A DNA stretch of 64,000 bases, taken from positions 434,001 to 498,000 of the forward strand of contig JAIVFJ010000004.1 of assembly GCA_025765615.1 (NCBI GenBank). Direction: 5' to 3'. The notes beneath the pieces were generated by a model, which saw only the letters and a list, made by a program, of their open reading frames with translations, did not search any database and was not told the DNA's origin. The DNA comes from Zopfochytrium polystomum. Taxonomy: Eukaryota; Chytridiomycota; Chytridiomycetes; Chytridiales; Chytridiaceae. Shown piece by piece: positions 1,306 through 28,334 of this stretch (its first letter is position 1; each line of letters opens with the position of its first letter). The position numbers were made by a program, and so were the translations under genes.

Positions 1306-1357
1306 GGCTGAGCCTCTCACCGTCATCCACGGCTGCTTCGACCAGTGGGGGTATAAA
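1306..1357 (+). promoter_or_regulatory. Promoter of the 1.5-kb secreted gene: GGCTGAGCC element plus TATA-like box
   Basis: GGCTGAGCC lies at 1306-1314, 215 nt upstream of the ATG at 1529, and a TATA-like GTATAAAG lies near 1350. The same element, in either orientation, precedes most other secreted-protein genes of the window. Confidence 0.5.
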
Positions 1358-1528
1358 GCCCCATCACCCCACCCGCCCACGCCGTCCTCCTCCAGTATTG
1401 CCACCAAAACCCAACGTCACACTCTTCCCTTCCTCCAAGCAACAGCAGCCCACTTCCCATCCAAGCCTTCCTCCCCTGCCCACATTCAAGTTCACGACTG
1501 CAAGCAAACAACAGCCAAAAGAATACCC

Positions 1529-1903
1529 ATGCGCTTCTCCGCCGCCACCGTCCTCGCGCTCGTCCTCGTCCTCCTCGCCATTGCTTTCGTCGACGCCGCC
1601 CCGCTGCTGACGCACCAACGTCGCGGAATCATTTCGAAGAGCAAGTCAATCGCCGGCCACGTCGCCGGCGCCAGCAGGACGGCCGCTGGCGCTAGCAGGA
1701 TGGCGGCCGGTCGTGCTGCGGACTTTGTCAAGGGCGGTGTTTCAAAGGGTGAGGGGAGGCTTTTGATGACTTTCTTTTTGGCCGGCTCTTGCGGTGGGGT
1801 GAAGGGGGGGGAACTTAGGACCAGGGGGGCGGAGGCGATTGCGTTGTGCTCTTTCCTTCTAACCCATTACGACCCTTTCTTTAAAGCCAAGCGAATCCTG
1901 TGA
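1529..1903 (+). CDS. Small secreted basic protein (signal peptide, dibasic site, Ala/Ser/Lys helix)
   Basis: The ATG at 1529 opens a clear signal peptide (residues 1-24, MRFSAATVLA... ending VDAAP) followed at once by LLTHQRRG, a dibasic RR where a Kex2-type protease could cut. The next 40 residues are Ser/Ala/Gly/Lys-rich (ASRTAAGASRMAAG). The layout matches the neighbouring basic family: signal, short propeptide, RRG, basic helix. After KGGVSKG at about 1748 the reading looks non-coding and a GTGAGG donor is present, so the true protein may be spliced, but I found no convincing acceptor. The annotated end is simply the first in-frame stop. Function unknown; secretion is inferred from the signal peptide. 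Confidence 0.6.
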   Translation: MRFSAATVLALVLVLLAIAFVDAAPLLTHQRRGIISKSKSIAGHVAGASRTAAGASRMAAGRAADFVKGGVSKGEGRLLMTFFLAGSCGGVKGGELRTRGAEAIALCSFLLTHYDPFFKAKRIL

Positions 1904-2596
1904 ATGAGTGAACGGGTTTGAAGTATGCGTGTGTAAAATATATTTCGTAATCTTGGCAGCACTTTTTCAGGGCAGTCCTTTTTTTTTTTTTTTTTTTTGA
2001 GTTTCGGGCTCGTCTGTTTCAGGCGATGTTACCCATTTGAAGTTCTTACTGCGATGCACCGTCCCAGGTGCAGTACCTCCAAAGCAAAAAACGTCATTTT
2101 GCGAGGGGGATGCAGACCAGTAAGCATCACAGGGGGGAGGGGGTGGGGGCATTGGTCAGCCCTCTGGCCAGGTCGTCGGAGACCAGCAAGGAGCCGCAGA
2201 CTTTCGTCCACCTCTATCTGCCTGTCTGTCGCCGGCGATGCGAGCAGCACGGCGCAGGCTGAAGGGTTTGCAGGGGTCAGGTATAATAAACGGGCCGTGC
2301 AAACGAGAGGAGAATGGCTGGCACGTCCACTTCTCGATGTATGAAGTAGATATTCAAATCGAATGCAGCAAGGAATTTAAGAATAATCCGAAGATGCACA
2401 CTTAACGTGCATAAAACCAATGAAATATGGGCAAGGAACTAAAATGCAGCAGCGCAAATCTGGTATTAACGAAGTCTCTGCCGAGGCGCTTGCGCATGCT
2501 GGACCATTGACTTCGTGCACGTTTCGCTCCTTCCACAAATGACCGCCGGCATCCGCAGTGCTGCACTTTGGAGAAGCAGAGGGTTCACAAATTTCC

Positions 2597-2628
<32 letters not shown>

Positions 2629-2844
2629 GACAAGATTATCAGGGTTCCACTGAGCCTGCATGTTGTGAGCGTGTGAAGTCGGTGGAAAGCTGGTTTGGTG
2701 GAGTGCCGCATGAGCAGCAGCGGTTTGCAAATGGCTCGCATTTTCCCTCCGTCGAAAACGGGAAGCTTTTTTTACAGCCTCTGCTCGATCCGTGCAAACG
2801 ATGGAGGAAAATAGGTCCCAAATACGTTGCTGCCACCCAGAGTT

Positions 2845-2880
<36 letters not shown>

Positions 2881-3521
2881 TTTATCTTCCCTCAGTGCAG
2901 CGAGGTCATGGGGCCGTGATGAGTCGACGGCGCGCTTCGCCCAAACCAAAATGTCCAACTCTGCAGACCGACACCCATTCTGCACAAATCGTAATTACAA
3001 TCAATCATGAGCATTCCACAGGTGGTGGGAGAATTGCGGAAGGAATAAATAGAGAAGGGGAATGGCGGAAAGGCTGAAAACAAAAAGTAATTTCAATGAC
3101 CCGCCCCCGCCCTTCGGCGAAGTACTATCGCCACAAAACTTTTATGCAGAAAGCATAATGGTGGCCGCCAGCCTGCCGAAAAAGGATAATCTTCGCGTCC
3201 CTTTGCGTGCGGCTGTCTCAAATCCGTTAGGAAATATCTGTGCTCAGCCCAGGCCGTCGCCGCGCGCAATTGCGGGCTGGTTCGAAAGTTGGGGAAGCAC
3301 GGAAACTTGTGTAAGTTGGTTTGGTAGAGAAAGAGAGAGAGAGAGAGAGTGTGTGTGTGTGTGTGAGACGAAAGATCATGGGCGCCCTATATAAATCAGC
3401 CTGCTCGTCGCCCTTCTCCCATCACTTCCAACAAACAGATTCCAGATCAGCTCCATTTGAACAATCCCAACTTGATCCAACCGGCTACTCGCCTCCACAA
3501 CCTCGCTCTCCGTACTTCACC
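1904..3521. other. Intergenic, AT-rich with long homopolymer runs
   Basis: No convincing gene. It holds T20 at 1979-1998, A29 at 2597-2625 and T33 at 2847-2879. The last two form an inverted poly(A)/poly(T) pair 221 bp apart. A GCTCAGCCC element lies at 3242-3250, a GA tract followed by a GT tract at about 3330-3365, and a TATATAAAT box near 3387, all upstream of the next secreted gene. Confidence 0.6.
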
Positions 3522-3913
3522 ATGCGCTTCTCGGTCTTTGCCATCTTCGCCGCCTTCTGCATCCTCTTCGCCCTGACCGTCGCGTCCGTCGAAGCCGCAC
3601 CAGTCCAAGCCGGCGCCCTCGAGCGACGCGGCATGCGAGAATGGTACGGCAAGGCAAAGGCGGGGTGGAGCAAGCTCAAGGCCAAGTTTGGCGGTGAGTT
3701 TTTTTGAGTGAACCCACCCTTCCCTTCTTCCGCGTCCCTATCTACTCTTTGTCGTAGCGCTCTGCCCCGTGCACCCAAAACTGAAATCAGCCCACTCTAC
3801 CTCACACTGACCGAACACGACCTGCAGGCAGGAATCGCGGCGCACCGCCCGCAGCTGGCCCGGCAGAGGGCGGCTACGCCGAGGGAGGCGCCGACGGCGG
3901 TTACGCCCAGTAA
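3522..3913 (+). CDS. Small secreted protein with Gly/Tyr-rich tail (two exons)
   Basis: Exons 3522-3693 and 3828-3913 join in phase (donor GTGAGT, acceptor CTGCAG) to give 85 residues. Residues 1-25 are a signal peptide (MRFSVFAIFAAF... VEAAP). A dibasic LERRG follows, then a basic amphipathic stretch (MREWYGKAKAGWSKLKAKFGG), then a Gly/Ala-rich tail with two GGYA-type units ending GGYAQ. The TATATAAAT box near 3387 and the GCTCAGCCC element at 3242-3250 fit the shared promoter layout. It resembles the 1.5-kb gene and the larger basic proteins in signal and RRG site but is far shorter. A peptide released after RR is likely but unproven. Confidence 0.75.
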
Positions 3914-4422
3914 CCAGACGTGTACCAGCCACTGTATTGTTGGGCGCGGGCGCGTGTACCTGTACCCATTATGTTTCATTTTTTTTCGATCGACTTTTTT
4001 TTTTTCGACTTCGCTGCGACCAATCTTTTCTCCATTTCATTTGCAACGATCACTGTTGTCAGAATACACTGTTTGCTTTCTTCTTTTCTTGATTTTGCCT
4101 GGCCCCTCCGCATGCAACCAGAGAGATACGAAAGGTACGTACAAGACAGCAGCGACCCGACCTCTTCCCACTTGCCCAAAGATGTTGGGAGCGAGACGCA
4201 GACAGTAGTAAGCAATAGAGGACCGGAAGACTGGCTCTGGTTGGCGACGGCAAAACTCATGGTCAGTTCATTATAAGTTGTTTCTTTCATTGCATTCGTG
4301 TGAAGAGGAAAAAAAGGGCGGCAGTGTGCCCCTCTTTAAGAAAACTACGAAAAAAGTGGAACTACCCGAGACATTCCAACTGTCAAATGGTCAACTACAG
4401 ACTCCCTTCCCCCTTTGCCAAG

Positions 4423-6064
4423 CTAAAACCCAAAACTATTCATAATATTCAGTAGGTCTGACGCCAGGCTGCCGTCAATCTTGCTTTCGCCCTCCTGAGA
4501 TTCGCTCGCGTCTGCAATTCCAAAGTTTGATGATTCGGGACTCTGCTCCGTCCGATCGTTTAACTTCGAAACTTTTGGGCTGCTCTGCTCTGGCAGCGGC
4601 AGGGCGGCTGGTTCCTCAGCCGAATTTGATACTGCAGGAGATGTGTTTATCCGCGGAGGAGGCGGGACCGCGGCTATTATCTGGGGTTGCGGCTCCAGTT
4701 TCGGCTGCTCCCCTGATTTTGTAGGCACCGGGTGCGTGTCACTCTCGTCATGAGGAACGCGAATTGCTTCCGTGGGTTTGGTTATAAGCGCTGATGATGC
4801 TTCTGTTAGTGCTGCTTGTGACGGGTTGGGCTCTGCTGCACCCGTCAGCCTGCTTCGAGGGGGAGTTACGTGGCTGTGGTCGGCTGTTGCGATTTGCGCT
4901 TTCGTCTCAGCTGTCCTAGGTTCGCTTGGGCTGGCTGAATTGACCACAGGGGGTACAGACGATCGAAGCTGCGGAAGCGGGCGAGACAGGGCTTGGAGCG
5001 TTTCAGCGCCAAACTTCTGCTGAAGCAGCATCGCTGCGTGCTAAAAAAAAACGAAAGGCGGCAAATAACGAGAGAGTCATCATGAAATCGCGAAAGAAGA
5101 AGAAATTGATGGAGAGGTAGCCGCACCTGCACAGCACCTGACTTCTTCCTGAGCTCCGCCAAGCCCTCCTCAAAAACTCGAGTAAACTCTGGCGGCGGCG
5201 CCTGCACGTCCGGCGCCGCGGCCTTGGCCGCCGTCGTAGCGACTACACCCACCGGCGCCGCCGCCGCCGAACTCTTCGGCTTGGGCTTCTCATCCGCGGG
5301 CACCCGCCTCCTGAGCTCCGTGACCTCTCGCTCAAGCTCGGCGCACCGCCTCGTCAGCTCGCGGATACATTCCAGGCTCTCGCGCTCCGCGGCCTGCGTC
5401 TGCCGATGCAGCGTCTCGTATAGCTCTGCAGAGCGCATGGGGGGTGGGAGGGACGAGTGGCAGCCGGTTGAAAAAAACGGTGGTGCGGGTGGTTAGAACA
5501 ACCCCCTGGGGTTGATAAAAACCAAACAGACAATACGCAACCTTTCCACGACCCCTCCTCCTCGCACCGCGCGCACCCCCGCCCCGCGTCGCCGCCCCAA
5601 AACCCCTTGCTGCTCGCCCCACCGCCGCCGGCGCCAGCCCCGCTGCTGTTTTCGTCGTCGCCGCCGCCACCGCCGCGCCGCCGCGCACCGCTCCGGTCCC
5701 CCGCCGCCCCGGCCTCCGCCGCCACAGCCGCAGCGCCGAGTGGCTCCCGCGCCGCACCACTCGGTTGCTGCTGCTGATGCTGATGCTGCATGTCGAGCTG
5801 CTTTTCGACGGGGTCCGGGCGGTGCGCGGGCGGAGTCGGCAAGGCGGCAGCGGGGCGGCGCGGGGCGAGGCCCGGCGCGAGGATGCTTGACGGGGCCGCA
5901 TGCGGTGCTGGGGCCGGAGAGTGGGGCAGGCGGTTGGCGGCGGGTGCCGATGCGGTGGCGCCGGCCGCTGGAGGAGGCGGGAGCGGGGTGGGGGCGTCGC
6001 TGTAGTTGACGGGCTTCCGGCGCGGGCTGCCGGAGGAGGCGGACGATGGTGTCGCGGGCCGCAT
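4423..6064 (-). CDS. Uncharacterised proline-rich coiled-coil protein (three exons)
   Basis: Minus-strand exons 6064-5542, 5425-5127 and 5040-4423 join in consistent phases to give 479 residues. Exon 1 is low complexity, rich in Ala/Pro/Gly, with a His/Gln run near DMQHQHQQQQ. Exon 2 holds a charged helix (ETLHRQTQAAERES... ELEREVTELRRR) with heptad-like spacing, probably a short coiled coil. Exon 3 is Ser/Pro/Glu-rich and ends in a hydrophobic LLNIMNSFGF tail. I chose the ATG at 6064 (MRPATPSS) because upstream sequence runs through a (TTTC)n microsatellite. An ATG at 6202 would add 46 Lys-rich residues. No catalytic domain is recognisable. Confidence 0.6.
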
Positions 6065-6139
6065 CTGGCCGCTGTGTTTTGGGTGGTGCTTGGGATTGTC
6101 CGGAGACAGCGCGGCGAAACGCGAAGATTTCTTCCTTTT

Positions 6140-6175
6140 CTTTTTTTCTTTCTTTCTTTCTTTCTTTCTTTCGCC
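6140..6175. repeat. (TTTC)n microsatellite
   Basis: Roughly nine tandem TTTC units (GAAA on the minus strand), just 5' of the preferred start of the coiled-coil gene. Confidence 0.85.
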
Positions 6176-6377
6176 CTGATCTTTTTGGTGTTCGTTCTCC
6201 ATTAGCGTTGGGCTCTACTTGCCGCAAGCTTTTTCCTTTGGTCTGCCGAGCAAGGTCGATTGAGGGCTCTGAAAGCTGCCGCCAGCAAAGCGATGAAAGA
6301 CGATGCACTCTGTTTTTGCGGATGTGTGCATAAGTCGGTGCAGTTTTATCAACCAACTTTCCTTATTCCAGTGCACA

Positions 6378-6725
6378 CTACAAACATTGGCCTGAAAGAA
6401 AAACAGTGTACCCAATCTTCGCTCCTGCCATGATTCCTGCAGTTTCTTTGCTCGACCTCAACCGCTCCTTTCCCCCGCTCATCACCACCCCGACTTTTTT
6501 TTGACGGCCCACTTTCAACTTGCGCAGCGAGGAAAGCTTTAATCTGGCTTCAGCGCGCTCATATTGAACGGGCTTCCTCAGCTCCTGGATCTGCCTCCAA
6601 GTCGAACTCTCGGGTATCTCGACTTTTGTAGGGGTAATCTTTCTGCGGCCGCCTTGCGGGCAGCGCCGGATGAGGGGTGCGCCACTGTGGTTGGTGGAGG
6701 CTACTGGCAAAGCTTGAACCGCCAT
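6378..6725 (-). pseudogene. Decayed copy of the PQGGRRK peptide gene
   Basis: The minus frame VQALPVASTNHSGAPLIRR then CPQGGRRK aligns with VQASPTVSIAHSGAVLTRR then SPQGGRRK of the intact gene at 7533-7808. The signal-peptide region is lost: reading upstream in frame meets a TAA and no hydrophobic segment. After the shared motif the two diverge, here into a Lys-rich tail. I read it as a truncated duplicate, though an undetected upstream exon cannot be excluded. Confidence 0.5.
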
Positions 6726-7532: not shown

Positions 7533-7808
7533 CTAGGCAAGCCGCACCTTGGTAACAGGCCGCTTGACGGTGACGGAGAGGGCGTCAGGCCCATCAGGCC
7601 TGCTCAGTCCCCGGATGACCCGGATCGCGATCGTATTTTCGCCAAGTATTGAGCCCGAACCGGAGCCAACCTTTCTGCGGCCGCCTTGGGGGCTCCTTCG
7701 GGTAAGCACAGCGCCGCTGTGGGCGATGGAGACTGTGGGCGAAGCTTGAACCACGATGGAGGCTGCGGCGAAGAGCAGGCAAAGGAGCGACGCGAGGGAG
7801 ACGCGCAT
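7533..7808 (-). CDS. Secreted peptide precursor with LTRR-SPQGGRRK site
   Basis: This is a single-exon 91-residue protein. Residues 1-23 are a signal peptide (MRVSLASLLCLLFAAASIVVQAS). A short propeptide follows, ending LTRR, then SPQGGRRK and a 45-residue mature part rich in Gly, Ser, Val and Arg (ending VTKVRLA). Two dibasic sites (RR) within 12 residues suggest Kex2-type processing and possible release of SPQGG or of the C-terminal part. It belongs to neither the acidic nor the helical basic family but shares their signal-propeptide-RR plan. The GCTCAGCC element is not evident upstream. Function unknown. Confidence 0.65.
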   Translation of the reverse strand: MRVSLASLLCLLFAAASIVVQASPTVSIAHSGAVLTRRSPQGGRRKVGSGSGSILGENTIAIRVIRGLSRPDGPDALSVTVKRPVTKVRLA

Positions 7809-8269
7809 TTCTTGATTTTTGTGCGTGTGCATTGCACGTGTGTGTGTGTGTGTGAATGTTAAGGTGGTGTTTGATTGCGAAAGTCCGACCATAGCGAGGA
7901 GGAGATACATTTCGCATTGACGGGTTGAGGACAAGGGTTTAATTACATTTTCTATGGAACAATCATTGGAAACGTCGCAATACACGGCATTCCAGATTGG
8001 ACATAAGCAAAAGAGCAGCTTGCCCGCCGCTGTTGGGAGCACCAACCGGCGAAGGCATCGGTGGCTTGGCTAATACTGACTGGATTTAATTAGAAATCGG
8101 GCATATGTGAGTTTCAACTGTTTCGCTTGGAGTACAATAATACAAGATTTCTTGAATTTATTCTTTTAGCGTTCATGTATTACATACAGAAAAGCTGATC
8201 GGACGCAAACCGGAAAGAAAGACACAAGAGCCAACACGAGGGAGTAAAACCAACCGGCCACAATTGCGT

Positions 8270-9326: not shown

Positions 9327-9346
9327 TTTAAATGTCGGCTCAGCCG
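9327..9346 (-). promoter_or_regulatory. Promoter element of acidic gene 1: GGCTCAGCCG next to TTTAAA
   Basis: GGCTCAGCCG at 9337-9346 lies 5' (minus strand) of a TTTAAA box near 9327-9332, about 165 nt upstream of the ATG at 9173. Confidence 0.45.
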
Positions 9347-12971: not shown

Positions 12972-12980
12972 GGCTCAGCC
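12972..12980 (-). promoter_or_regulatory. GGCTCAGCC element upstream of acidic gene 2
   Basis: An exact nine-base copy, 111 nt upstream of the start codon. No clear TATA box is seen between them. Confidence 0.4.
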
Positions 12981-14681: not shown

Positions 14682-14916
14682 GGTATAAATACCAGTGGAT
14701 TTGTGTCTTGTGCTCTCTGTCTCCCGCCCCATCTCGCCCACGATCAATTCCGAACAAACACACTGCCCGCTTGACAGGAGACGACTGCCTCGTCGACGGG
14801 CGGCGGGCTGAGCAACGTTACAATGCCGACGGCAACCTCCTTCCTTTTGCGGAAGTCATGCGAAGTGAAGTTTCTCTGGATTGCTTTGTGTCAATCCCGG
14901 CTCCTGCGCTCAGCCC
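14682..14916 (-). promoter_or_regulatory. Promoter of acidic gene 3: TATA-like box and two GGCTSAGC elements
   Basis: Plus-strand GGTATAAATACC at 14682-14693, GGGCTGAGC near 14805-14813 and GCTCAGCCC at 14908-14916. The last could instead belong to a plus-strand unit. Confidence 0.45.
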
Positions 14917-15582: not shown

Positions 15583-15740
15583 GCTCAGCCGCATCTTCAC
15601 ACACAATGGCACTCCTTCATTCCATATTTGCACACACACACCATGCTTGGCAGGAGAAGCGGGGCTGCGCCAGCGGACTTGCACACTGAAAAAACGAAAG
15701 AACAAGAAAAAAGGGCATCGAGCAAGCGCATTTAAATGCA
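15583..15740 (+). promoter_or_regulatory. Promoter of the 22-mer repeat gene: GCTCAGCCG plus TTTAAA
   Basis: GCTCAGCCG at 15583-15591 (259 nt upstream of the ATG) and a GCATTTAAATGC palindrome near 15728-15739. Confidence 0.45.
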
Positions 15741-15849: not shown

Positions 15850-16377
15850 ATGCACGTCTCGCTCTCCCCACTACTATGCCTCCTCATCGCCGCCGCCTCC
15901 TGCGCCGTCCACGCCGCCCCCGTCGCCGCACCACCGTCTTCCGATGCGCTCGCCCGCCGCGGCCTCCTCGACTCACTCGGCAACGACCTGAAAAAGGTCG
16001 AGAACTTCGCCGGCAAGGAGCTCCGCACTGCCGAGAGGAAGCTGCCCGCCGCCGTGGGTGAAGTCAAGAGCCTGGCCAGCAAAGGGCTCCGCGCTGTCGA
16101 GAACAAGGCGCCCGGCGCCGCCCGCGCCGTCAAGAACTTTGCGGGCAGGGAGCTGCGAAACGTCGAGAAGAAGATCCCCCAGGCCGCCGGCGATATCAAG
16201 AACTTGGCGGGCAAGGGACTGCGCGCCGTCGAAAGGAAGGTGCCCGGGGCCGCAGGCGAGATCAAGAACCTGGCTGCAAAGGGCCTCCGCGCCGTCGAAA
16301 GGAAGGCGCCTGCGGCCGCCGGCGAGGTCAAGAACCTTGTGGCAAAGGCCGGCAATGCCATCAAGAAGAAGGTTTGA
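15850..16377 (+). CDS. Secreted basic protein with six 22-residue amphipathic repeats
   Basis: Single exon, 175 residues. Signal peptide MHVSLSPLLCLLIAAASCAVHAAP, propeptide, then LARRGLLDS (dibasic cleavage site). The mature part is six tandem units of 22 residues of the type VKNLAGKGLRAVERKAPGAAGE, each with a Pro at the same place; the last is truncated. Pro-punctuated 22-mers are the layout of exchangeable apolipoproteins, and the pattern predicts amphipathic helices that could bind lipid or chitin-rich surfaces; no homology is claimed. Strongly basic (Lys/Arg). Paralogous in signal and RRGLLDS motif to the genes at 18.7, 21.6 and 23.3 kb. Confidence 0.8.
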   Translation: MHVSLSPLLCLLIAAASCAVHAAPVAAPPSSDALARRGLLDSLGNDLKKVENFAGKELRTAERKLPAAVGEVKSLASKGLRAVENKAPGAARAVKNFAGRELRNVEKKIPQAAGDIKNLAGKGLRAVERKVPGAAGEIKNLAAKGLRAVERKAPAAAGEVKNLVAKAGNAIKKKV

Positions 16378-17219: not shown

Positions 17220-17711
17220 GTGCACAGCGCCGTCAAGGGAGCCGCAGCCAAGGCCGAGGGCGCTGCGAAGAAGGCCGGAGGCAAGTCCGAGGGCGCCGTC
17301 AAGGGAGCCGCGGGCAAGGTCAAGGGAGCTGCGACCAAGGCAGAGGGCGCTGCGAAGAAAGCTGACCTGAAGTCCGAGGGCGCCAGGGAGTTGCGTCTAA
17401 GGCAGCAGGAGCTGCTGCTGCAAAGAAGGCCGGAGGCAAGGCCGAGGCTGCCGTCAATGGAGTTGCAAGCAAAGCCAAAGGCGCAAGCGCCGTCAAGGGA
17501 GCCGAAGCCAAGGCCGAGCGCTGCAAATGAGGCCGGAGGCAAGGCCGATGCAGTCAAAGGCGCCGCAGCCAAAGCGGGTCGAGCAGCGAAGGCAGCCGGC
17601 GGTGCACCCAAGGGAGCCGCGGGCAGAGCCACGGGCAAGGCCGTTGGCGCAGTCAAGGAAGCCGTAGCCAAGGCAGGTGAAGTAGCAAAAGCGGCTGGCG
17701 GTGCAGCCTGA
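17220..17711 (+). pseudogene. Decayed basic Lys/Ala/Gly-repeat protein
   Basis: The frame is LEA-like (AVKGAAAKAEGAAKKAGGKSEG, AVKGAAGKVKGAATKAEGA). From about 17390 to 17520 the repeat continues only in the +1 frame (SKAAGAAAAKKAGGKAEAAV), then returns to the first (ANEAGGKADAVKGAAAKAG), implying two compensating indels. There is no signal peptide and no ATG: the frame opens at a GTG right after a CACAG that could be an old acceptor. I read it as a 5'-truncated, frame-shifted relative of the basic family. Confidence 0.55.
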
Positions 17712-18363
17712 TTCCGCGTCGATACGGGCGTCGAGTGCTCGCTCTTTCGTTCTTTCACTGGGTTATCTCTACATTTTGGTTTCCTCGAGTTCCACGCACT
17801 TCTCCCCTCCTGCTCGGTTTTTTTTCTTTTTTTTAATTTTTCTTGTGACAAGATTTTTTTTGGGGAGGGTTAAATAAAACTGTGTACAGGAGTTTATCTT
17901 TTAGTTCCATTGTTTCCTTGACGCATTTGCCATGTTGCTTTGACTCGTCTTTCGAACGAGCAAAATCAATACAATAATAATCTCCTCCAAAATGGAAAGA
18001 AGGGCAAAGAATTGAGAATTTGAGAAAACCAGTTGTCGCTCGGCTGAGCTGGCAATTTCTCCTAGTCGCGAAGGGCTGGCTATAGCAAAACCCATAATAA
18101 TATTATACACCACGAAGTTGCCTGCGATTCGCTTCTGAAAGGTAAAGCGCGATGGCGTTTTGTACCTTCTTTTGTTTGGCGTATGCGTTTTCTCCTTCCC
18201 TCTTTCGTCATGTTTCGTGGCTGAGGCTTTTCGTTGGCTGTTCCGGGCCTGTCCGGCCGTCCAGACACAAAGTCTCCCTTTTTGGGTATTATGCTCCGCC
18301 CACTCTGTGTTTGTAAGGGGAATGTGCAAGTAGGTCAATCCGAGGTGCCACGGAGGCAGAGAC

Positions 18364-18471: not shown

Positions 18472-18505
18472 GCTCAGCCCGCCTGCTCTTCGCCCCTAAA
18501 TACGC
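18472..18505 (+). promoter_or_regulatory. Promoter of the 11-mer repeat gene: GCTCAGCCCG plus CTAAATAC
   Basis: GCTCAGCCCG at 18472-18481 and an AT-rich CTAAATAC box near 18496-18503, about 190 and 170 nt upstream of the ATG at 18669. Confidence 0.5.
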
Positions 18506-18668: not shown

Positions 18669-19907
18669 ATGCGCCTGCCCCTCCCATCCCTCTGCTGCCT
18701 TCTCCTCGCCACCGCCGCTGCCTCCTCGGCCGCCGCCTCCACCTCCACCAACACCGACGCTGCCCTCGCCCGCCGCGACGTCCTCGACTCGATCGAAAAC
18801 AAGGTCGAAACAGGGCATCACCGGCGCCGCCGACCGCGCCGTCTCGGGCGTCACCAAGGCCGCCGACGGCGTCCGCAAGACCGAGAGCAGGGTCCAGAAC
18901 GCAGAGCAGAAGCTCGAGCGCGCCGAGAAAAAGGTCGAGCGCGCCGCCTCCGGCGTCAAGAACGGCGTCGAGGGCGCCGTCAAGGGTGCCGAGCGCAAGG
19001 CCGAGGGCGCTGTGAAGGACGCCGCGGGCAAGGCCGAGAGTGCAGTCAAGGGCGCAGCTGGCACCGTCAAGAGTGCCGAGCGCAAGGCCGAGAGTGCAGT
19101 CAAGGGTGCCGCGGGCAAGGCTGACGCAGCCGTCCAGGGCGCAGAGCGCAAGGTCAAGACCGCCGCGAAGGGTGCCGAGGAGAAGGTCAAGACCGCCGCG
19201 AAGGGTGCTGAGCAGAGGGCCACCACAGCCCTCAAGGGCGCAGAGCGAAAGGTCAAGACCGCCGTGGGGGGTGCTGAACAGAAGGTCAAGACCGCCGCGA
19301 AGGGTGCTGAGCAGAGGGCCACCACAGCCGCCAAGGGCGCAGAGCGCAAGGTCAAGACCGCCGTTGGGGGTGCTGAGCAGAAGGTCAAGACCGCCGCGAA
19401 GGGTGCTGAGGAGAAGGCCACCGCAGCCCTCAAGGGCGCAGAGCGCAAGGTAAAGACCGCCGCGAAGGGTGCCGAGGAGAAGGTCAAGACCGCCGCGAAG
19501 GGTGCTGAGCAGAGGGCCACCACAGCCGCCAAGGGCGCAGAGCGAAAGGTCAAGACCGCCGTGGGGGGTGCTGAGCAGAAGGTCAAGACCGCCGCGAAGG
19601 GTGCTGAGCAGAGGGCCACCACAGCCGCCAAGGGCGCAGAGCGCAAGGTCAAGACCGTCCGTGGGGGGTGCCTGAGCAGAAGGTCAAGACCGCCGCGAAG
19701 GGTGCTGATCAGAAGGCCACCACAGCCGTCAAGGGCGCAGAGCGCAAGGTCGAGAACGCCGCGAAGGGTGCTGGGCAGAAGGTCACCGGAGCCGTTAAGG
19801 GCGCAGAGCGCAAGGTGGAAAGGACCGTCAGCACCGTGAAGCAGGCCGGCGGGCAAGTCGCCGGTGGTGTCAGGGCCGCCGGAGCCACCCTCAAGGGCAA
19901 GAAGTGA
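18669..19907 (+). CDS. Secreted basic protein with about twenty 11-residue repeats (frame breaks present)
   Basis: Signal peptide MRLPLPSLCCLLLATAAASSAAAS, propeptide, LARRDVLDSIENKVE, then long arrays of 11-mers of the type KTAAKGAEQKV / TTALKGAERKV encoded by 33-nt DNA repeats, ending TVKQAGGQVAGGVRAAG and KGKK. This 11-residue periodicity is the one used by synuclein and LEA group 3 helices (analogy, not homology). The frame breaks near 18811 (an extra A: GTCGAAACAGGG against the paralogue's ATCGACGCGGGC) and near 19655-19675 (two extra bases compared with neighbouring repeats), together restoring frame. The gene is therefore either lightly broken or mis-assembled. The conserved signal, promoter element and perfect C-terminus argue that it is or was recently functional. 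Confidence 0.65.
18950..19830 (+). repeat. Tandem 33-bp DNA repeat array
   Basis: Units such as AAGGTCAAGACCGCCGCGAA, GGGTGCTGAGCAG and GGCCACCACAGCC alternate in two- to three-unit higher-order blocks with very few differences between copies, implying recent unit expansion or gene conversion. They encode the 11-residue helical repeats. Confidence 0.85.
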
Positions 19908-20629
19908 TTCTGGTGTCGCTTGCGTGGCTCGATCTTCCCCTGTTGGTCACCCGCTTCTTTTAAGTTCCCATCGCTTGACTCCTTGCTCACTCACTCGCTT
20001 GTTTCCTATTTCCAATTGTCGATGCATAATGCCTTTTTTTCACCTTCCTTTTTTCTATCAAGCAAAATACACGAAAGTTACCTGCGATTCGCTTCGGAGA
20101 GATAAAAATTACATACATCCTTATCGTCGTCAGCCTTCCAGAAGGCTGAATACGTTGAAAGCGGACGTCGCAGACCAGTCGCAGACCACACATTAATGCG
20201 TGTTTCAAAGTAAAGTTGTCCTTCCCTCGACCTCCAGATGGAGACACGCGGCCAATTTTTCCCGCTTTCCAATTCTGGGTATCGAATCTACTCTCGCCTG
20301 CTGTCACTATCAGTTCACGGTTTTGTATGCCGCTCCAAGCCATGCTGTGATACGGCAGCAACTGAAGCAGCAGCTCCACAATATGGCTTCTTTTCGTTCA
20401 ACTCTTGGCGTGCTTGCATTGACCCAAACAAGCAATTTCTGAGTTTTCGGATATATTTAAAATAGGTACTGCCTGGCGCGTGCTGTAGTACAAAGCGGGA
20501 ATCTACGCGGCTAAACAAAACAGCAGATCTTTTGCAGTTGATTACTCCTGGGTAGCCACAAATATTTTGGCTCGTAGTAATCGCTACATCGATGCGCTAT
20601 GGCAATCAGGACGGATCGAGCGAAAAGAA

Positions 20630-20965
20630 AGTCGAGCACTGTGTTGGGGAGTCAGAAGACAGCGTGGGTCCGCCGAGCATAAGGTTGAGGTGCTGGGAAG
20701 GGCGTCAAGCACGGTGCCGGGACGCGGCCAAGAGCGTCAAACGTAAGTCGAAAGCTGCCGCCCGCGAGGCACGCCACGGCAAGAATTGCGCCGAGAAGGA
20801 CTCTTTGCCAATGGCGCAGCGCTCGGCGAGAGGACCGGAAAGAAAGCCGCCCACAAGACGAAGGAGGCTGTACGGGCGCTGCTGCGCACAAGGCTGAGGC
20901 TGCCGGCCAAAGGCAAAGGACGAGGTCGTCGGAACCGCGAAAGGCGCTGAACGCACGGACGCATA
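20630..20965 (+). pseudogene. Decayed fragment of the 21.6-kb basic protein gene
   Basis: The DNA follows the order of blocks in the 21.6-kb gene (GGGCGTCAAGCACGG, GTCAAACGTAAGTCGAAAGC, GAGGCACGCCACG, GCGCACAAGGCTGAGGC, GACGAGGTCGTCGGA, AAAGGCGCTGAACGC), which corresponds to 22100-22390 there. Many indels destroy the frame and there is no signal exon. It lies about 1 kb upstream of its intact relative, consistent with a local duplication. Confidence 0.6.
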
Positions 20966-21173: not shown

Positions 21174-21276
<103 letters not shown>

Positions 21277-21381: not shown

Positions 21382-21413
21382 GCTCAGCCCCCTTGACCAC
21401 TTTCATAAATACT
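21382..21413 (+). promoter_or_regulatory. Promoter of the 21.6-kb gene: GCTCAGCCC plus CATAAATAC
   Basis: GCTCAGCCC at 21382-21390, 14 bp before a CATAAATAC TATA-like box, 203 nt upstream of the ATG. Confidence 0.5.
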
Positions 21414-21592
21414 CTCGACCGCGCATTCCATACCACCTTACCCTCCCTAGGTCGTGCGTACCCAGCCCTCTCTGCTTTCCCCTCTCTCCTCTCACCCTCT
21501 CACTGCTACCACCACACCCGCAACACCCACCCACACACTCCCACACCCACACACAGAGCAACGAAGCCCACCCCAAACAACACCCCCCCGCC

Positions 21593-22549
21593 ATGCACCT
21601 CCCCCTCCCGACCGTCTGCTACATCCTCCTCGCCAGCGCCGTCGCCGCCTCGGCCGCACCCACCGCAGCCAACCCCGCCATCGCGGTCGCCCGCCGCGGT
21701 CTCCTCGACTCGATCGAAAACAAGATCGACGCGGGCATCACCGGCACCGCCAGCCTCGCCGTCTCGGGCATCGGCAAGGCCGCCGACGGCGTCCGCAAGG
21801 CCGAAAATAAGGTCGAGGGCGCTGCAAGTACTGTCAAGAACGGCGTCGAAGGAGCTGCCAGGGGTGTCAAGAACGGCGTCGTCGGCGCCGAGCGCAAAGT
21901 CGAGCGTACAGCGAGCGGCGTCAAAAACCGAGTAGAGGGCGCCGCCGAGGGTGTCAAGAACGGCTTCGAAGGAGCTGCCAGGGATGTCAAGAAGCGCGTC
22001 GAGGGCGCCGCCCACGGCGTCAAGAAAGGCGTCGTCGGCGCCGAGCACAAAGTCGAGCGCGCGGCTGGCGCCGTCAAGAACGACGTAGTGAGCGCCGCCA
22101 AGGGCGTCAAGCACGGCGTCGAGGGAGCCGCGCGTGACGTCAAGACCGGCGTCAAGCGCAAGGCCGAAGCCGCCGCTGGCGAGGCGCGCCAAGTCAAGAA
22201 CAAGGTCGAGGGCAAAGTGAAGGGCGCCGAGCGCACGGTCGAGAACGCCGGAAAGGAAGCCGCGCACAAGGCGAAGCAGGTCACGACGGGCGCCGCGCAC
22301 AAGGTCCAGGCCGCCAAGCACAAGGCGAAGCAAGATCTCCACCAGGCAAAGGACAAGGTCGTCGGAGTCGCCAAGGGCGCAGAGCGCAAGGCCGAGGGCG
22401 CAGTGAAGGGTGCTGGGCAGAAAGTCACCGGCGCCGTCAGGAACGCAGAGCGCAGGGTCGAGCGAACCGCCAGCACCGCCAAGCAGGCGGGGTCTCAGAT
22501 TGCTGGCGGTTTCAAAGGCGCCGCACGCACCATTGAGGGCAAGAAGTAA
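21593..22549 (+). CDS. Secreted basic helical protein, long form (318 residues)
   Basis: Single exon. Signal peptide MHLPLPTVCYILLASAVAASAAP, short propeptide, then VARRGLLDSIENKIDAG, the conserved start of the mature protein. The body is degenerate 11-mer helical units rich in Lys, Ala, Val, Gly and Glu (KNGVEGAARGV, ERKVERTASGV), then a Lys/His/Ala stretch (AAHKAKQVTTGAAHKVQAAK), and a family-typical C-terminus (STAKQAGSQIAGGFKGA, ending GKK). Spaced Glu/Lys pairs predict long amphipathic helices. This is the best intact template for the broken 18.7-kb and 20.6-kb relatives. Confidence 0.82.
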   Translation: MHLPLPTVCYILLASAVAASAAPTAANPAIAVARRGLLDSIENKIDAGITGTASLAVSGIGKAADGVRKAENKVEGAASTVKNGVEGAARGVKNGVVGAERKVERTASGVKNRVEGAAEGVKNGFEGAARDVKKRVEGAAHGVKKGVVGAEHKVERAAGAVKNDVVSAAKGVKHGVEGAARDVKTGVKRKAEAAAGEARQVKNKVEGKVKGAERTVENAGKEAAHKAKQVTTGAAHKVQAAKHKAKQDLHQAKDKVVGVAKGAERKAEGAVKGAGQKVTGAVRNAERRVERTASTAKQAGSQIAGGFKGAARTIEGKK

Positions 22550-23009: not shown

Positions 23010-23027
23010 GGACAGACAGGCAGGCGC

Positions 23028-23058
<31 letters not shown>

Positions 23059-23070
23059 GGCAGGCACAGA
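23010..23070. repeat. (GACA)n microsatellite
   Basis: About 13 GACA/GGCA units immediately upstream of the 23.3-kb promoter element. Confidence 0.8.
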
Positions 23071-23101
23071 CATAGGCAGCGGCGGTCAGACAATCGCGCG
23101 T

Positions 23102-23140
23102 GCTCAGCCCGTTATCCCTTTTCTTGGCGCCTTTATAATC
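23102..23140 (+). promoter_or_regulatory. Promoter of the 23.3-kb gene: GCTCAGCCCG plus TTTATAA
   Basis: GCTCAGCCCG at 23102-23111 and CTTTATAATC at 23131-23140, 20 bp apart, 110-150 nt upstream of the ATG at 23252. This is the tidiest copy of the shared promoter layout. Confidence 0.55.
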
Positions 23141-23251
23141 TCGGCCGGACCGTTCCAGCCCTCCCGTTCTCTCTCCCCTTCTATTCCTCTCTCACAACTC
23201 ATCACCCACACCACCACACACTCACACCCCCGCCCCCCTGAAACCCCTACA

Positions 23252-23791
23252 ATGCGCTTCTCCCTCCTATCCCTCGGCTGTCTCCTCCTCGCCGCCGCCG
23301 CCGCCTCGGCCGCCCCCACCACCTCCGCTGCCGCCGCCGCCCAGCTCGCCCGCCGCGGCCTGCTCGACATGGCGGAAAACAAGATCGACTCCAGCATCAC
23401 CAACGGCGCGAACCGCGTCGTCTCGCACATCAACAACGCCGCGAACGACGTCCGCGCCGCCGAAAACAAGTTCGAGCGCGCCAAGAACGCCGTCAAGAAC
23501 TTGCCGCAAGCTGCCGCCGCCAAGGTCGAGGGCGCCGGACGGCGACTCAGGGGCAAGGCCATCCACGTCGCCGACCAGGCGCGACACATCAAGAACGTGG
23601 TGAAGCACGACGGCCACGCGGCCAAGGACAGGGCCGAGCGCGCCGTCGTGGGCGCCGCCCTGCGTCCGGTGCACAAGGTCCAGAATGCTGTGAGGGGCAT
23701 CGAGAATACCGCTACCACTATCAAGCAGGCGGGCTCCGAGATCGCGGGCGGTTTCAGGGGCGCCGAAAGCGTCATCAAAGGCAACAATTGA
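23252..23791 (+). CDS. Secreted basic helical protein, short form (179 residues)
   Basis: Single exon. Signal peptide MRFSLLSLGCLLLAAAAASAAP, propeptide, then LARRGLLDMAENKIDSSI as in the 21.6-kb protein. The middle is rich in Asn/Ala/Lys helices (NNAANDVRAAENKFERAKNA) with little strict repetition. The C-terminus (ENTATTIKQAGSEIAGGFRG, then AESVIKGNN) matches the TxKQAG(S/G)xxAGG signature closing the 18.7- and 21.6-kb proteins. A partial duplicate follows at 24.3 kb. Confidence 0.8.
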   Translation: MRFSLLSLGCLLLAAAAASAAPTTSAAAAAQLARRGLLDMAENKIDSSITNGANRVVSHINNAANDVRAAENKFERAKNAVKNLPQAAAAKVEGAGRRLRGKAIHVADQARHIKNVVKHDGHAAKDRAERAVVGAALRPVHKVQNAVRGIENTATTIKQAGSEIAGGFRGAESVIKGNN

Positions 23792-24275
23792 TCCCGCATC
23801 GCGTCGCGTCGCGTCGCTTCGCTTCGCTTGCGTGCGGTGCTCGATCTTTCGTCTGGTTCCTGCGGTGGGCTCCCGCATTCTTGTTTTCTTCCCTTTTGTT
23901 TTGCGACCCTGTTTTTTTTTTTTTTTGGTTCCTTTGTTCGCTCTTCTCTGCATGCTTGTTGTCAGTGGGTGCTGTAAACAAACTAAATACATACACAATG
24001 CTGATTGAATTTCCTAAGAAAGTCAATCGATTAGCCCCTGCCGCTGAACGGCGCGTATCTCTTTTCGAGAGATGATTCGCACGATTCTCTTGAGGGCACT
24101 CCCGGCGTTTTTTTTCGGGGATTCTGCCGATTTCACTGTTGTGACGAGGGTCGTTCATAGGGATGGGCATCCAAGTGGCCCCCAATGACGGTAACGAGGG
24201 AGTTCTTGTGAGTTGTTCCTTGACACAATCATTATCGGATTCTCACTCAAATAAACACGGCGGAGAGAAAATCGC

Positions 24276-24408
24276 CATGGGTCCGATTCACAAGGTCGAG
24301 CACTCCGTGAAGGGCATCGAGAATACCGCTGACACCGTCAAACAGGCCGGCTCCGAGGTCGTGGGCGGTTTCAAAGGCGCCGAAAGCGTCATCAAGGGCA
24401 ACAATTGA
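24276..24408 (+). pseudogene. 3'-end duplicate of the 23.3-kb gene
   Basis: An open stretch of 43 residues (MGPIHKVEHSVKGIENTADT, then VKQAGSEVVGGFKGAESVI, KGNN) matches the C-terminus of the 23.3-kb protein. The copy includes the stop and 3' flank: CTGTAAACAAACTAAATACA recurs after both genes (about 23970 and 24580). No signal peptide or promoter element precedes it, so it is a truncated tandem duplicate, though an ATG is retained. Confidence 0.7.
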
Positions 24409-24959
24409 TCCCGCGTCGTGGAATGACCGCTTGGCGCGTGGGGCCTCGATCTTTTTCGTCTGGGTTCATGCGGTGAAGCCCAAATCTTACAATATTTCAT
24501 CCTTCTTTGTTTTGGGTCCCTTTTTTTTTGTTTCCATTTCTGTTCTTCTTCTGCATCCATTTACTGTTGTTACTGGGTACTGTAAACAAACTAAATACAT
24601 ACACGATGATGATTTGAGTTTCTCGTCTATGAGATACAAAGAAATGGGATACGTTCCTTGACACCATCATCATTGGATTAAAAATGAATCAAATGAATAC
24701 ATTGCACCACGGCAAAAAAAAAAAAAAGTGTAGCGTTTCCCAACGTCCACAAATTGCCAGGTCTGTCAAACGCGTTTTTGGGAGTCCTGACTGGGCGACG
24801 CGGCGAATAAAGATATCGAAAGTAGAGTTCTCATCTCGGAATCCTATTTCCCAAACCCTTTCCGAGAAGGGTCTCGCACTGCATCTCAGAAATGCTGGGC
24901 GAGCGGAGAGGCGAGGCACAGTTATAATTTTTGGATCGCAACTCAGCCTTTTCTTTCGG

Positions 24960-25961
24960 ATGATGATCCCGTCCCACATCGCCATCAACATCACTGCCCA
25001 CCTCGACGCTCGCGATCAGTACCACCTCGCAACCCTCTTCCGCCTACAATCTGTCGCAGCCTACGCCTACCGCTCCCTCGTCTCCAGGCCGTTTGTGAAA
25101 GCCAGCAAACACGGCGACGTCGAGCTCCTGGACCGACTCGAGCGCGATCGGCGCCTATTCCCGTATCCCCACCCTAAATTCGAGAACTTCGCCGTCGCGG
25201 TTGCCTGCAGATTCAGACATGTCCACGTTCTCGAGTGGTGGAAGAACGCTGGCGGCGTCAACTGGAGCGAGGTGAACTCGGGGATGTTCGACCCGCTCGC
25301 CAGTCCCAGCGGCAGCGGGGCCATTGCGGTGCTCGAGTGGTGGCGACGGAGCGGGCTCCCAATGAAGTGCACGACCACCAGCCTGGACGAAGCGAGCAGG
25401 AAGGGACAGGTTTCGGTTCTGCAGTGGTGGCGGGAAAGCGGCGTCGACCTGCCTGCGGGCGCACGTTGCTTGGACGCAGCCAGCCAGGGCAGGCACATTG
25501 CCGTCTTGCAATGGTGGAAAGAGAGCGGACTCCCTCTGACGTACACTGTTCGCGCACTCAATATCGCGATCTCTTGGGGGCGATTTGACGTCTTGCAGTG
25601 GTGGAGGGACAGCGGGCTGGAGCTAAAGTATTCAGAATCAGTTATATGGGACGCTAGCAGGCCAGTCTTACTCTGGCTCAAACAGAACGATGTCGAGTTG
25701 ATCGGGTACGAGCGGTGCTTGGTGCGCGCAAGCTCGTGCGGCGACGTTGAGACTCTCGAGTTCTGGCGGAATCTTAATCAGCCGCTGCAGTACTCTGAAA
25801 GGCCTATCGATGCAGCAATTCGGTCGGGCAACGTCGCGGCGCTGCAGTGGTGGAAGGGCAATTTGGAGCTCAAGTACACGAGGTCATATGTGGACCGGCT
25901 CGGAAGAAAGTCTGCGGCTAAGAGGTGGTTTGAGGACAATGGGCTTCTACAGAGCGAATAA
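24960..25961 (+). CDS. LEWW/LQWW ankyrin-like repeat protein
   Basis: Single exon, about 333 residues from MMIPSHIAINITAHLDARDQ. The N-terminal 45 residues look like a short F-box-like helical region (HLATLFRLQSVAAYAYRSLV). Then come about ten degenerate units of 28-33 residues with the core VLEWWKNAG or VLQWWRESGLPLTY, preceded by an A/S-rich turn (ALNIAISWGRFD). These are ankyrin-type helix-turn-helix repeats with an invariant WW pair, likely a protein-protein scaffold. I preferred the ATG at 24960 over upstream extensions, which have no family resemblance. A homologue lies at 61.5-62.6 kb on the other strand. Confidence 0.8.
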   Translation: MMIPSHIAINITAHLDARDQYHLATLFRLQSVAAYAYRSLVSRPFVKASKHGDVELLDRLERDRRLFPYPHPKFENFAVAVACRFRHVHVLEWWKNAGGVNWSEVNSGMFDPLASPSGSGAIAVLEWWRRSGLPMKCTTTSLDEASRKGQVSVLQWWRESGVDLPAGARCLDAASQGRHIAVLQWWKESGLPLTYTVRALNIAISWGRFDVLQWWRDSGLELKYSESVIWDASRPVLLWLKQNDVELIGYERCLVRASSCGDVETLEFWRNLNQPLQYSERPIDAAIRSGNVAALQWWKGNLELKYTRSYVDRLGRKSAAKRWFEDNGLLQSE

Positions 25962-27959
25962 AACATGCCAGTGATGTGAGTAAAAGCGCCGAGGGAACAA
26001 CGGTGTGGAGATTGATGCGAAGACCGCTTGACTCGTCAGATGTCAGCTGAGACATTCAAACTCTGATGCTCGCCTTGAATGGACGGCAGGCCGTTTTCAT
26101 ATTTGCGATCTCACAACCGACGTGTCATCATGCGTTGCGCTGGATTGAACAAAAGTGTAGTGTAACAAAGAGATCCATGGAACTTTCTTTGGTATGCGCA
26201 TTCCTCGCAAGGTTTACTCAAGGTTGTCTGTCATCTCTAATCAGCCTCGTCGACTAAGCGATCATTCATGATCTTCGAACGAATCTTATGGCTCTTACGC
26301 CATCTCGTTTCGTCAATCAAACCGACTTGTGCCCAAGTTAGTACGTGAATTCAACTGAATAAAGGAAGCAAAAAAGCTCGGGTAGTGGTCGACGTAGGTG
26401 GAAAAAATATTTGGTGGTAGGGAAATCCCCTTCCACTGCAGATGGGGTCATGGAGCGAATGTTTAACTATCGGAACCTTATCGAGAAGGCGACGACGGCT
26501 CTCTCCCACCTCTGAGTTGCCATAGGACGACAATGTATTGTATAACCAATGTGGGGGTCATGGCAAGAGCGTCGCGGGTTTGCTAATTGAATACTGGAGA
26601 CGCAGGCTTTTCCTCTTTTAGCGCGCCGCCGACCGCCTGCCTCCAACCGCGAGAGATGGTAGCACCAGTGAGGAGATGATGTGGACGAAGTCTCAAACAC
26701 TGTTGTGATGATCTCATAATGTCGTCTTAGTAAGCTACGTGAAGGTTGCTCACCACCGCAACCTCGTTGACCGGTTGTGTGGCGGGTGGCACCAGCAAAA
26801 ATTTTGCTCCGCGAAAATTGTCTCGTCTTCGCATCTCTGCTCGCGATAGAAAAACATCAGTGTCGACAGCTGACAACAAGTGTGGATTGAGTAATCGTTT
26901 CGTTACGCACCTGAAATCCAGCGACGACCACATCCTCCCAGTTCATGATCCGTATTTCTAGGCACCATCGCAAACGCGTCGTTCCAGGTCTGCAAAGTTG
27001 TGATGCCGCTAAAACCGGACGACGACACCCCGACTCCTCCCCGGACACAGCAAATACGGCGGAGCCTAAAGCGAAGAGCACGTAGTCACCTTGTTCGCCG
27101 CCCGCAAGTCCACTGCTCCCTCGTGCGCCGACGACCGCGCCTTGCTGACTCGACGCGTGCATCCCACTGAAACGTGTTATTACCCGGTCGCGCACGGAGC
27201 GAGCCGCGCGTCGCGGAGCGAGTCTTCCGACGCCGTGACTTTCAGACAAGCCATCCTTCATGGCCTTAAGGCTCTGCCTGTTGTCTGACCGTCTTTGTGC
27301 AAGTAGCGGATGCATTCTCGGCGTGAGCGGGCCCCAAAGTCGCCCAGCGTAAGCCGACCGTTTCGTTTGGATCAGGCCCGTCATGTAGCGTCAGGAACAC
27401 GCCAGGGGCCTTGTCCACCCATTGAATGAACAGGAAGCTAGCGGACGGGTTCCTGCTCCCAGTCGGCACTGCTGAATGCGCCGCTCGCTCCCACGGAAAG
27501 GCTGAGCCCGGGCTGAGCGCAAGGACCGCGCAAGAACTGCGGTGAAGGGCTGGCTCCGGACGGAGTCGGGGTTCACATGCAACCTGCACGAACTGGTCGA
27601 GAAAATCTTGGTGTGAGGTTATGGAAGCTGGCTGAGCACGTCGGAAGCTTGCGGACCGAGGCGGCGAACACAATCAAGGTATCCGCACATTTCCTTTTGT
27701 GGGAGGCGGGCTGAGTGCAAGGAAGAAGAACAGGTAGAAAAAAGGCAAAATCGTGGGAAATGTGTCTCGTGTCTTCCGACTCCCGCAGAAATTGGAGGAC
27801 AAGAACGTGCTTCGCCCTCAACGGATTGAAGTGCGAAGGGGAACGGAAATGGTATAAAAGTTGCGGCGTGTACTGCAATCCCACCCACTACCATCTCACT
27901 TACCCACATACAAGTACACACACACACACACACAAACCCCTCGCTCACTACAAACGACA
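25962..27959. other. Two-kilobase intergenic region
   Basis: I find no supported gene. Several frames open on the minus strand (26.9-27.4 kb) but lack domains, a signal peptide or splice logic. Its right part holds GGCTGAG elements near 27500, 27511, 27630 (GGCTGAGCAC) and 27709, and a GGTATAAAAG box at 27851-27860, forming the promoter of the 28.0-kb gene. Confidence 0.5.
27500..27860 (+). promoter_or_regulatory. Promoter of the 28.0-kb gene: four inverted GGCTGAG copies and a TATA box
   Basis: GGCTGAG at 27500-27506, 27511-27517, 27630-27636 and 27709-27715, all in the inverted orientation relative to the other plus-strand genes, then TATAAAAG at 27853-27860. Confidence 0.5.
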
Positions 27960-28334
27960 ATGCACTCCGTCTTCCTCGCCCGCTTCACCGCTTGCCTCAT
28001 CCTCGTCCTCGCCATCGCGAGTCCTTTCACGGCCGCTGCACCGCTCGGTCGCCGCAGCTTCTTGAGCAACATGGAAGGCAAGCTCACTGGCGCAGCGGGT
28101 GCCGTCAAGAACTTTGCGACCAAGGAGTTCAACGGCGCAAAAGGCCTAGTTCAGGGCATCGAGCGCAAGGTTGGCCAGATGGGCGGCGCACGCGCCATCG
28201 AGCGCAAGGTCGCGGGCGTTGCGGGACAGGTCAAGGACTTTGCGTCGAAGGAGTTTGGCGGCGCAAAGAAGCTGGCTGGGCAGGCTTTCAGCGGCGTCAA
28301 GAAGGCGGTCGGCGCCGTCAAGCGGAAGCTGTGA
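27960..28334 (+). CDS. Secreted basic helical protein (124 residues)
   Basis: Single exon. Signal peptide MHSVFLARFTACLILVLAIA to about residue 27, then PLGRRSFLSNMEGKLTGAAG, the dibasic site and helix start typical of the cluster. Two approximately 45-residue units follow, each with AVKNFATKEFNGAKGL- or VKDFASKEFGGAKKL-type sequence and an AIERKV or GIERKV linker; the protein ends VKKAVGAVKRKL. Highly basic. It is the last member of the cluster, separated from the others by the LEWW gene and about 2 kb of non-coding DNA. Confidence 0.78.
   Translation: MHSVFLARFTACLILVLAIASPFTAAAPLGRRSFLSNMEGKLTGAAGAVKNFATKEFNGAKGLVQGIERKVGQMGGARAIERKVAGVAGQVKDFASKEFGGAKKLAGQAFSGVKKAVGAVKRKL

Follow-up and report, generated by a model that had tools for sequence, protein, structure and literature searches.

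A chytrid gene cluster for leader-bearing cationic helix proteins and charge-segregated diblock proteins, possible components of an extracellular matrix

Gene content of the locus

We examined a 64,000-nucleotide window of the Zopfochytrium polystomum genome (C4:434001-498000, on contig JAIVFJ010000004.1 of assembly GCA_025765615.1; positions without a contig or locus name are those of the window) and searched the genome (80.16 Mb, 761 contigs) for relatives of its genes. Between 1.3 and 28.3 kb lies a cluster of genes for leader-bearing proteins of opposite charge, as an initial annotation had recognised: six intact basic genes, one frame-broken basic gene (B4) and three intact genes with acidic tails (A1 to A3), together with decayed copies of both kinds (Table 1). 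The basic genes all lie on the forward strand and A1 to A3 all on the reverse strand, and unrelated-looking open reading frames (ORFs) break up the cluster, for example at about 4.4-6.2 and 24.7-26.0 kb. Every named gene has a signal-peptide-like leader, as called by a hydrophobicity heuristic of our own and not by SignalP. The two families may form an extracellular glue, gel or coat, and antimicrobial peptides are also possible.

Table 1 Genes and remnants of the cluster, with the upstream GCTCAGCC sites (distances in bp from the ATG; aa, amino acids)
Feature	Position	Strand	Organization	GCTCAGCC position	GCTCAGCC strand	GCTCAGCC distance
B1	1529-1903	+	leader-HQRR-cationic Ala-rich part, ORF 124 aa; splice 1749-1886 possible	1306-1313	-	-223
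B2	3522-3913	+	leader-LERR-short cationic part; second exon 3828-3913 by eye	3242-3249	+	-280
A3 diblock gene	9173-8270	-	three exons by eye; first splice without RR	9338-9345	+	-172
Decayed acidic gene	10400-9679	-	broken frames; exon 2 and tail can still be recognised			
Decayed acidic gene pieces	about 11480-10640	-				
A2 diblock gene	12861-11924	-	exons 12861-12723, 12602-12477, 12303-11924, by eye	12973-12980	+	-119
A1 diblock gene	14609-13716	-	exons 14609-14474, 14359-14213, 14038-13716, by eye	14806-14813 (second site 14908-14915)	-	-204 (second site -306)
B3	15850-16377	+	leader-LARR-22-residue amphipathic repeats	15583-15590	+	-267
Basic repeat gene remnant	about 17227-17714	+	no leader seen			
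B4	18669-19907	+	leader-LARR, long 11-residue repeats; broken or misassembled	18472-18479	+	-197
Decayed basic remnant	about 20590-20960	+				
B5	21593-22549	+	leader-VARR-long amphipathic helix protein, 318 aa	21382-21389	+	-211
B6	23252-23791	+	leader-LARR-amphipathic helix protein, 179 aa	23102-23109	+	-150
Fragment resembling B6 C-terminus	24283-24411	+				
B7	27960-28334	+	leader-LGRR-amphipathic helix protein, 124 aa	27630-27637 (further two at 27500-27507, 27511-27518)	-	-330

Cationic proteins with predicted amphipathic helices

Each intact basic gene (B1, B2, B3, B5, B6, B7) encodes a hydrophobic leader, a short propiece, an RR pair and a cationic mature part, and RR follows the leader in all seven of B1 to B7. 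Cys is absent from the basic mature parts scanned, which measure 138 residues in B3 and 283 in B5, and repeat units span 22 residues (66 bp) in B3 and 11 residues (33 bp) in B4. B4 switches frame twice: its leader and C-terminal end share one frame, and its 11-residue repeats, some 280 residues in all, lie in another that is free of stops, which may reflect a recent frame loss or an assembly error. With Kex2-processed repeat proteins (KEPs) these precursors share a leader and dibasic sites, and the B3 repeats lie between KK or RK pairs; they differ in having mostly a single RR, at the leader border, and no KR or RR between the B3 repeats. PMC7329392 defines KEPs by at least three tandem repeats of at least eight residues between KR, KK, RK or RR, a definition that would cover B3 if KK and RK were counted, its mature part holding no KR or RR. 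Dibasic pairs are missing from the mature part of B2 and from the 75 residues analysed of a helix protein encoded on contig C163, and B1 and B6 have one each.

Where five to seven of the basic genes had been proposed to be helical, four intact ones (B3, B5, B6, B7) outperform their shuffles, and B1 and B2 are unconvincing. Taking 11 residues in three turns (98.2 degrees) as the reference period, we found that the hydrophobicity spectra of B3, B5, B6 and the C163 protein peak at 98.5, 99.0, 100.0 and 98.5 degrees, respectively, and that their mean amphipathicity exceeds 300 of 300 shuffles; these four show the hydrophobicity pattern of an amphipathic helix with 11-residue period. B7 exceeds 299 of 300 shuffles, with a spectral peak at 101.5 degrees whose power is below that of some shuffles. 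The peaks of B1 and B2 fall outside the helical band, and their amphipathicity exceeds 277 and 224 of 300 shuffles, so that the 23 and 76 equally good shuffles weaken both as helical candidates. Mean moments in 3-11 helix geometry are 0.385 for B3, 0.305 for B5, 0.293 for C163, 0.268 for B7, 0.261 for B6 and 0.246 for B1; the 0.26-0.39 of B3, B5, B6, B7 and C163 corresponds, with differing window conventions, to the span between Plin4 and ApoA-I that PMC5889406 gives in its Table 1 (ApoA-I 0.39, Plin3 0.35, synuclein 0.30, Plin4 0.257). B3 and B5 resemble ApoA-I, alpha-synuclein and perilipin 4 in period, moment and composition. The helix proteins here are unlike them in being cationic and in having a leader and RR, whereas Plin4 and synuclein are intracellular.

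Judged from their translations, the longer helix proteins have the 11-residue period of apolipoproteins, synuclein and perilipin 4. Pfam scans of six proteins gave sub-cutoff matches only: B5 scored 32.1 bits against Apolipoprotein PF01442 (cutoff 90) and 20.4 against ApoLp-III PF07464 (cutoff 36.3), B3, B6 and B7 were not among the matches to these two, and A2, the sole diblock protein scanned, had no domain. We infer that the helix proteins work like apolipoproteins, synuclein and perilipin 4 while not belonging to those families by cutoff. Sequence comparison with PDB returned no match for B5 or B3 at E 0.1. A word-based protein database search at E 1e-3, insensitive for low-complexity proteins, found no homologue of its two queries, B5 (7998 most word-sharing candidates scored) and spliced A2 (6724). 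A control query, a PF12449-type ORF of the window, matched 57 proteins, and since proteins of Blyttiomyces helicus (52% identical across 53% of the query length) and Cladochytrium tenue (68% identical across 31%) were among them, the database does cover chytrid proteins. The basic set comprises more than one sequence family, because the genome search with B5 missed B1 and B2; B1 has a paralogue, B0 (L023:6345-6722), whose start lies some 3.7 kb to the left of the window.

Diblock organization of the acidic proteins

The three intact genes described as acidic do have acidic tails, yet their spliced products are diblocks in which a basic block and a polyacidic tail share one chain. Exon models of A1 to A3 were spliced by eye, as was C88b after a wrong automatic gene model, and the outcome for C15 and C208 hinges on splice choices. 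As spliced, these genes and their relatives elsewhere in the genome follow one plan, with the leader in exon 1, a basic Gly/Lys/Arg block in exon 2, and LVD followed by the polyacidic tail in exon 3. Exon 2 is Gly-rich and ends in KYYG or RYYG in A1 to A3, GK-rich in C208a-d, and RGG/Gly-rich in C88a-c, C20 and C308; the portion of C88c examined showed no strongly acidic tail.

The charge analysis took in 11 spliced models, excluding C88c, C15 and near-identical copies. All of them have a positive block 1 (+3 to +17) and a negative block 2 (-42 to -87), and kappa, a measure of charge segregation, is 0.28-0.45 against shuffle means of 0.20-0.30, exceeding the shuffle mean in 11 of 11. Each modelled chain thus carries opposite charge blocks capable of pairing, as expected of a coacervate or adhesive, and the earlier idea of two oppositely charged components survives in altered form, each acidic-tailed protein already holding a basic block. 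The tails could alternatively bind cations (Ca2+ or a metal) or control mineral, with the basic block as a wall anchor. An Asp+Glu content of 27-63% in block 2, partly as 18-bp, six-residue repeats, agrees with this; the lack of a Pfam domain in A2 does not, we know of no mineral in such fungi, and we consider cation binding quite improbable.

The dibasic site was said to be mostly shared, which holds for the RR of B1 to B7, A1 and A2 and fails for A3. The first splice brings a dibasic pair together in A1, A2, C308, C88a, C88b (as KR), C88c and C20; in C208a, c and d one would arise only through a possible 3-base microexon, and in C208b not even then. This possible microexon, seen by eye at L044 about 55-160 bases before exon 2 of C208a, c and d, lies between an AG acceptor and GTAAGT and would restore an RR codon lost in the simple splice.

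Leader, propiece, RR and cationic part, in that order, would also suit antimicrobial or membrane-active cationic peptides, the acidic part of the diblocks then being a removable propiece that keeps the cationic part neutralised. Plant thionin precursors have such a plan, a cationic part followed by a neutralising acidic C-terminal propiece; they are of a different order of size, and the Cys-free basic parts scanned here are unlike them. The RR preceding the cationic part in B1 to B7, the short cationic mature parts of B1 and B2, and a duplication and decay of cluster genes that would fit an arms race all point to such peptides, while the length of B3 and B5 and the lack of Cys point away. By eye, moreover, the exon 2/3 border has no dibasic pair in A1 to A3, C308, C88a, C88b or C20, so that no obvious site would free the cationic part in these; the GK-rich C208 blocks have many dibasic pairs inside and may allow its release. 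We regard an antimicrobial role as the main rival explanation, somewhat less probable than the structural interpretation given below.

Spread over the genome and selection

Acidic relatives were found on C308, C20, the near-identical C15/C137 and C88, where a search located a and b and a leader scan located c. An acidic cluster of at least four genes exists twice, in versions that differ: C208 and C245 hold the first, and C125 holds the second, parts of which also lie on C538 and C694. Tails of the C208 and C125 versions are 84-97% identical. C59 holds a leader-only piece, C32 a tail, and C2, C5 and C512 weaker tail matches, and the searches gave further weak matches as well. The near-identical acidic loci on separate contigs (C208/C245, C125/C538/C694; C15/C137) point to haplotypes left uncollapsed or to a recent segmental duplication. 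With B5, C163 and B7 as queries, the helix family was placed on C4 and C163, with marginal matches on C242 and C276 and none on the contigs that hold the other acidic clusters. No acidic gene lies in the 20 kb around the C163 helix gene (about 10 kb each side); on these negatives, the two families meet at one known locus.

Synonymous (dS) and non-synonymous (dN) rates were estimated from alignments that repeats make uncertain. Tail exons of the C208/C125 pairs gave dS 0.441 and dN 0.078 (b), 0.419 and 0.014 (d), and 0.109 and 0.055 (c); pair a has 0 synonymous and 3 non-synonymous changes and C15/C137 has 0 and 4, and tail constraint is thus clear in two of five close pairs. The corresponding C208/C125 leader exons gave dS/dN of 0.047/0.010 (a), 0.024/0.009 (b) and 0.148/0.064 (c), with 0 and 2 changes in d. 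Among paralogue tails, dN is well below dS in every computable comparison (A1/A2 2.37/0.27, C20/C88a 2.03/0.16, C308/C88a 1.18/0.22; dS of A1/A3 is saturated), and paralogue leaders gave 0.49/0.25, 1.47/0.25 and 0.70/0.19. For B0/B1 we obtained dS 0.245 and dN 0.051, and for the last 40 codons of B5/B6 0.85 and 0.38. These values point to purifying selection on part of the genes.

A shared upstream element

The element GCTCAGCC occurs upstream of B1 to B7 and A1 to A3 (Table 1). The window has 16 sites against 3.5 in shuffles, and 15 of the 16 lie within 1-28334, where the genome rate predicts 1.6. In the upstream 400 bp of 22 non-redundant genes, counted on either strand, it is the most widespread 8-mer, present at 18 genes (7 of 9 basic, 11 of 13 acidic) with about 0.5 expected; B0 and C163 among the basic genes (B4 counted), and C208a and C208d among the acidic ones, are without it. 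Binomial P values (1e-10 and 7e-17) overstate this enrichment because tandem genes are not independent. Outside this count, C59, C137 and two of the four C125a-d genes have a site within 400 bp. The GCTNAGC motif is palindromic, as would suit a dimeric factor.

Genome-wide, GCTCAGCC has 4647 sites against 3254 for the reversed pattern, and GTGCTCAGCCC 827 against 22; among the first 100 GTGCTCAGCCC places listed, 62 have another copy within 130 bases. Fourteen element places were inspected. Five (L053, L054, L056, L057, L064) lie in a multicopy repeat resembling a long terminal repeat (LTR), in which TRCTCAGCCC arrays, the same element as upstream of both families, precede TATAAAAG; L059 and L061 are in coding-looking DNA, L058 and L060 upstream of other ORFs, L055 in an intron of a gene that we take to encode ribosomal protein L29, and L062, L063, L065 and L066 are without assignment. 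Repeat copy L053 adjoins CCHC, gag-like coding, and it is conceivable that a retrotransposon took up a host element or the reverse.

The initial annotation had read co-regulation from a shared promoter element, and the presence of the element at 18 of 22 genes keeps this partly supported. The number of genome sites, the LTR-like arrays and the sites near or in other genes leave exclusive co-regulation without support. A common regulator for both families is plausible. The element also bears on whether two independent systems met by chance, one of secreted lipid-coating helices (for a surface or for taking up lipid) and one of charged proteins unrelated to them. Such a meeting would agree with helix-family finds limited to C4 and C163, an acidic family on many contigs and one shared locus; the same element ahead of both families, though not private to them, speaks against it, and we think it unlikely.

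A possible charged extracellular matrix

Our leading interpretation, to which we give a probability of about 35%, is that the secreted proteins form a charged matrix that associates with itself and includes helices binding to interfaces. An extracellular material would be built from two kinds of structural protein, presumably co-expressed and secreted, with leader removal, and then dibasic cleavage where a site exists, preceding assembly. The mature diblock would consist of a Gly/Lys/Arg-rich basic block followed by a polyacidic block; basic blocks would bind the acidic blocks of other chains and so bring about condensation to a gel or coacervate after secretion, and the excess negative charge would take up basic partners or cations. 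The cationic amphipathic-helix proteins would fold on lipid or apolar surfaces as apolipoproteins or perilipin 4 do, their charged face could also bind acidic blocks, and the helix proteins of this locus would anchor the charged material to a membrane or surface, or coat it there (cyst, rhizoid, sporangium plug). We rank this structural interpretation highest, since repetitive helices of such length, tail conservation and charge blocks within the chain are more in keeping with a material than with a short peptide that kills.

Sandcastle worm cement and other secreted glues of two components are comparable in their oppositely charged, low-complexity, secreted proteins, secretion being predicted here; unlike in that cement, both charges lie in one chain, and there is no evidence of phosphoserine or 3,4-dihydroxyphenylalanine (DOPA). 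The RGG/Gly blocks (C88a-c, C20, C308) and GK-rich blocks (C208a-d) resemble condensate-forming sequences. In C88, C20 and C308 members the RGG/Gly block is set apart from the acidic tract as in nucleolin and fibrillarin, condensate proteins of the RGG or GAR (glycine- and arginine-rich) and acidic-tract type; the proteins here differ in their signal-peptide-like leader and in the lack of a Pfam domain in A2, the diblock protein scanned. More tentatively, the system could be a fungal extracellular condensate of single-chain block polyampholytes, encoded by three-exon modular genes under a one-element switch, with secreted perilipin-4-like tethering helices. We know of no fungal counterpart to such an adhesive, coat or plug system.

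Several observations weigh against a matrix of this kind. The expectation that acidic and basic genes are regular neighbours was rejected, as they are co-located at one locus only, and so was that of a GCTCAGCC private to the two families, as the LTR-like repeat contains it too and further sites lie in or close to other genes. The diblocks are not charge-balanced, their net charge being strongly negative (-38 to -80 per protein in the 11 models), and kappa of A2 and C208d is barely above shuffles. The remaining three of the five close tail pairs are weak or uninformative regarding constraint, and the first 70 codons of B5/B6 (dS 0.253, dN 0.348) indicate no purifying selection. Lastly, among the papers that our literature searches returned, none is recognisable by title or abstract opening as describing a chytrid family of this kind or role. 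The negative homologue searches for B5 and A2, the many decayed copies and the lack of visible constraint on B5/B6 would suit fast-evolving, low-complexity secreted proteins without a common mechanism, shaped by drift or by varied interactions with other organisms. The three-exon plan, LVD junction and tail are conserved across contigs, however, and paralogue tails have dN below dS; we rate this as the least likely of the explanations considered.

To our knowledge, the adhesion of chytrid zoospores and rhizoids and the composition of the sporangium plug are poorly known at the protein level. The family genes are concrete candidates for chytrid adhesion or plug proteins, and for coacervate materials a modular diblock in a single chain would offer a natural template. 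An eLife atlas (PMC8887899) describes a fibrillar discharge plug in Rhizoclosmatium. Should the proteins instead be antimicrobial, they would represent an undescribed chytrid peptide family.

Other features of the window

A small leader-LTRR-basic protein, S1, is encoded at 7533-7811 (-), with a decayed copy at 6378-6725 (-); it has no Pfam match and no GCTCAGCC within 800 bp upstream. Proteins with VLEWWRxSGLxxxYS-type repeats, ankyrin-like by eye and multicopy in the window, are encoded at 24684-25961 (+) and 61454-62635 (-). At 53737-55026 (+) lies a PF12449-like ORF with relatives in chytrids and among many metagenome proteins, and a further ORF, 55027-56310 (+), stands directly behind it.

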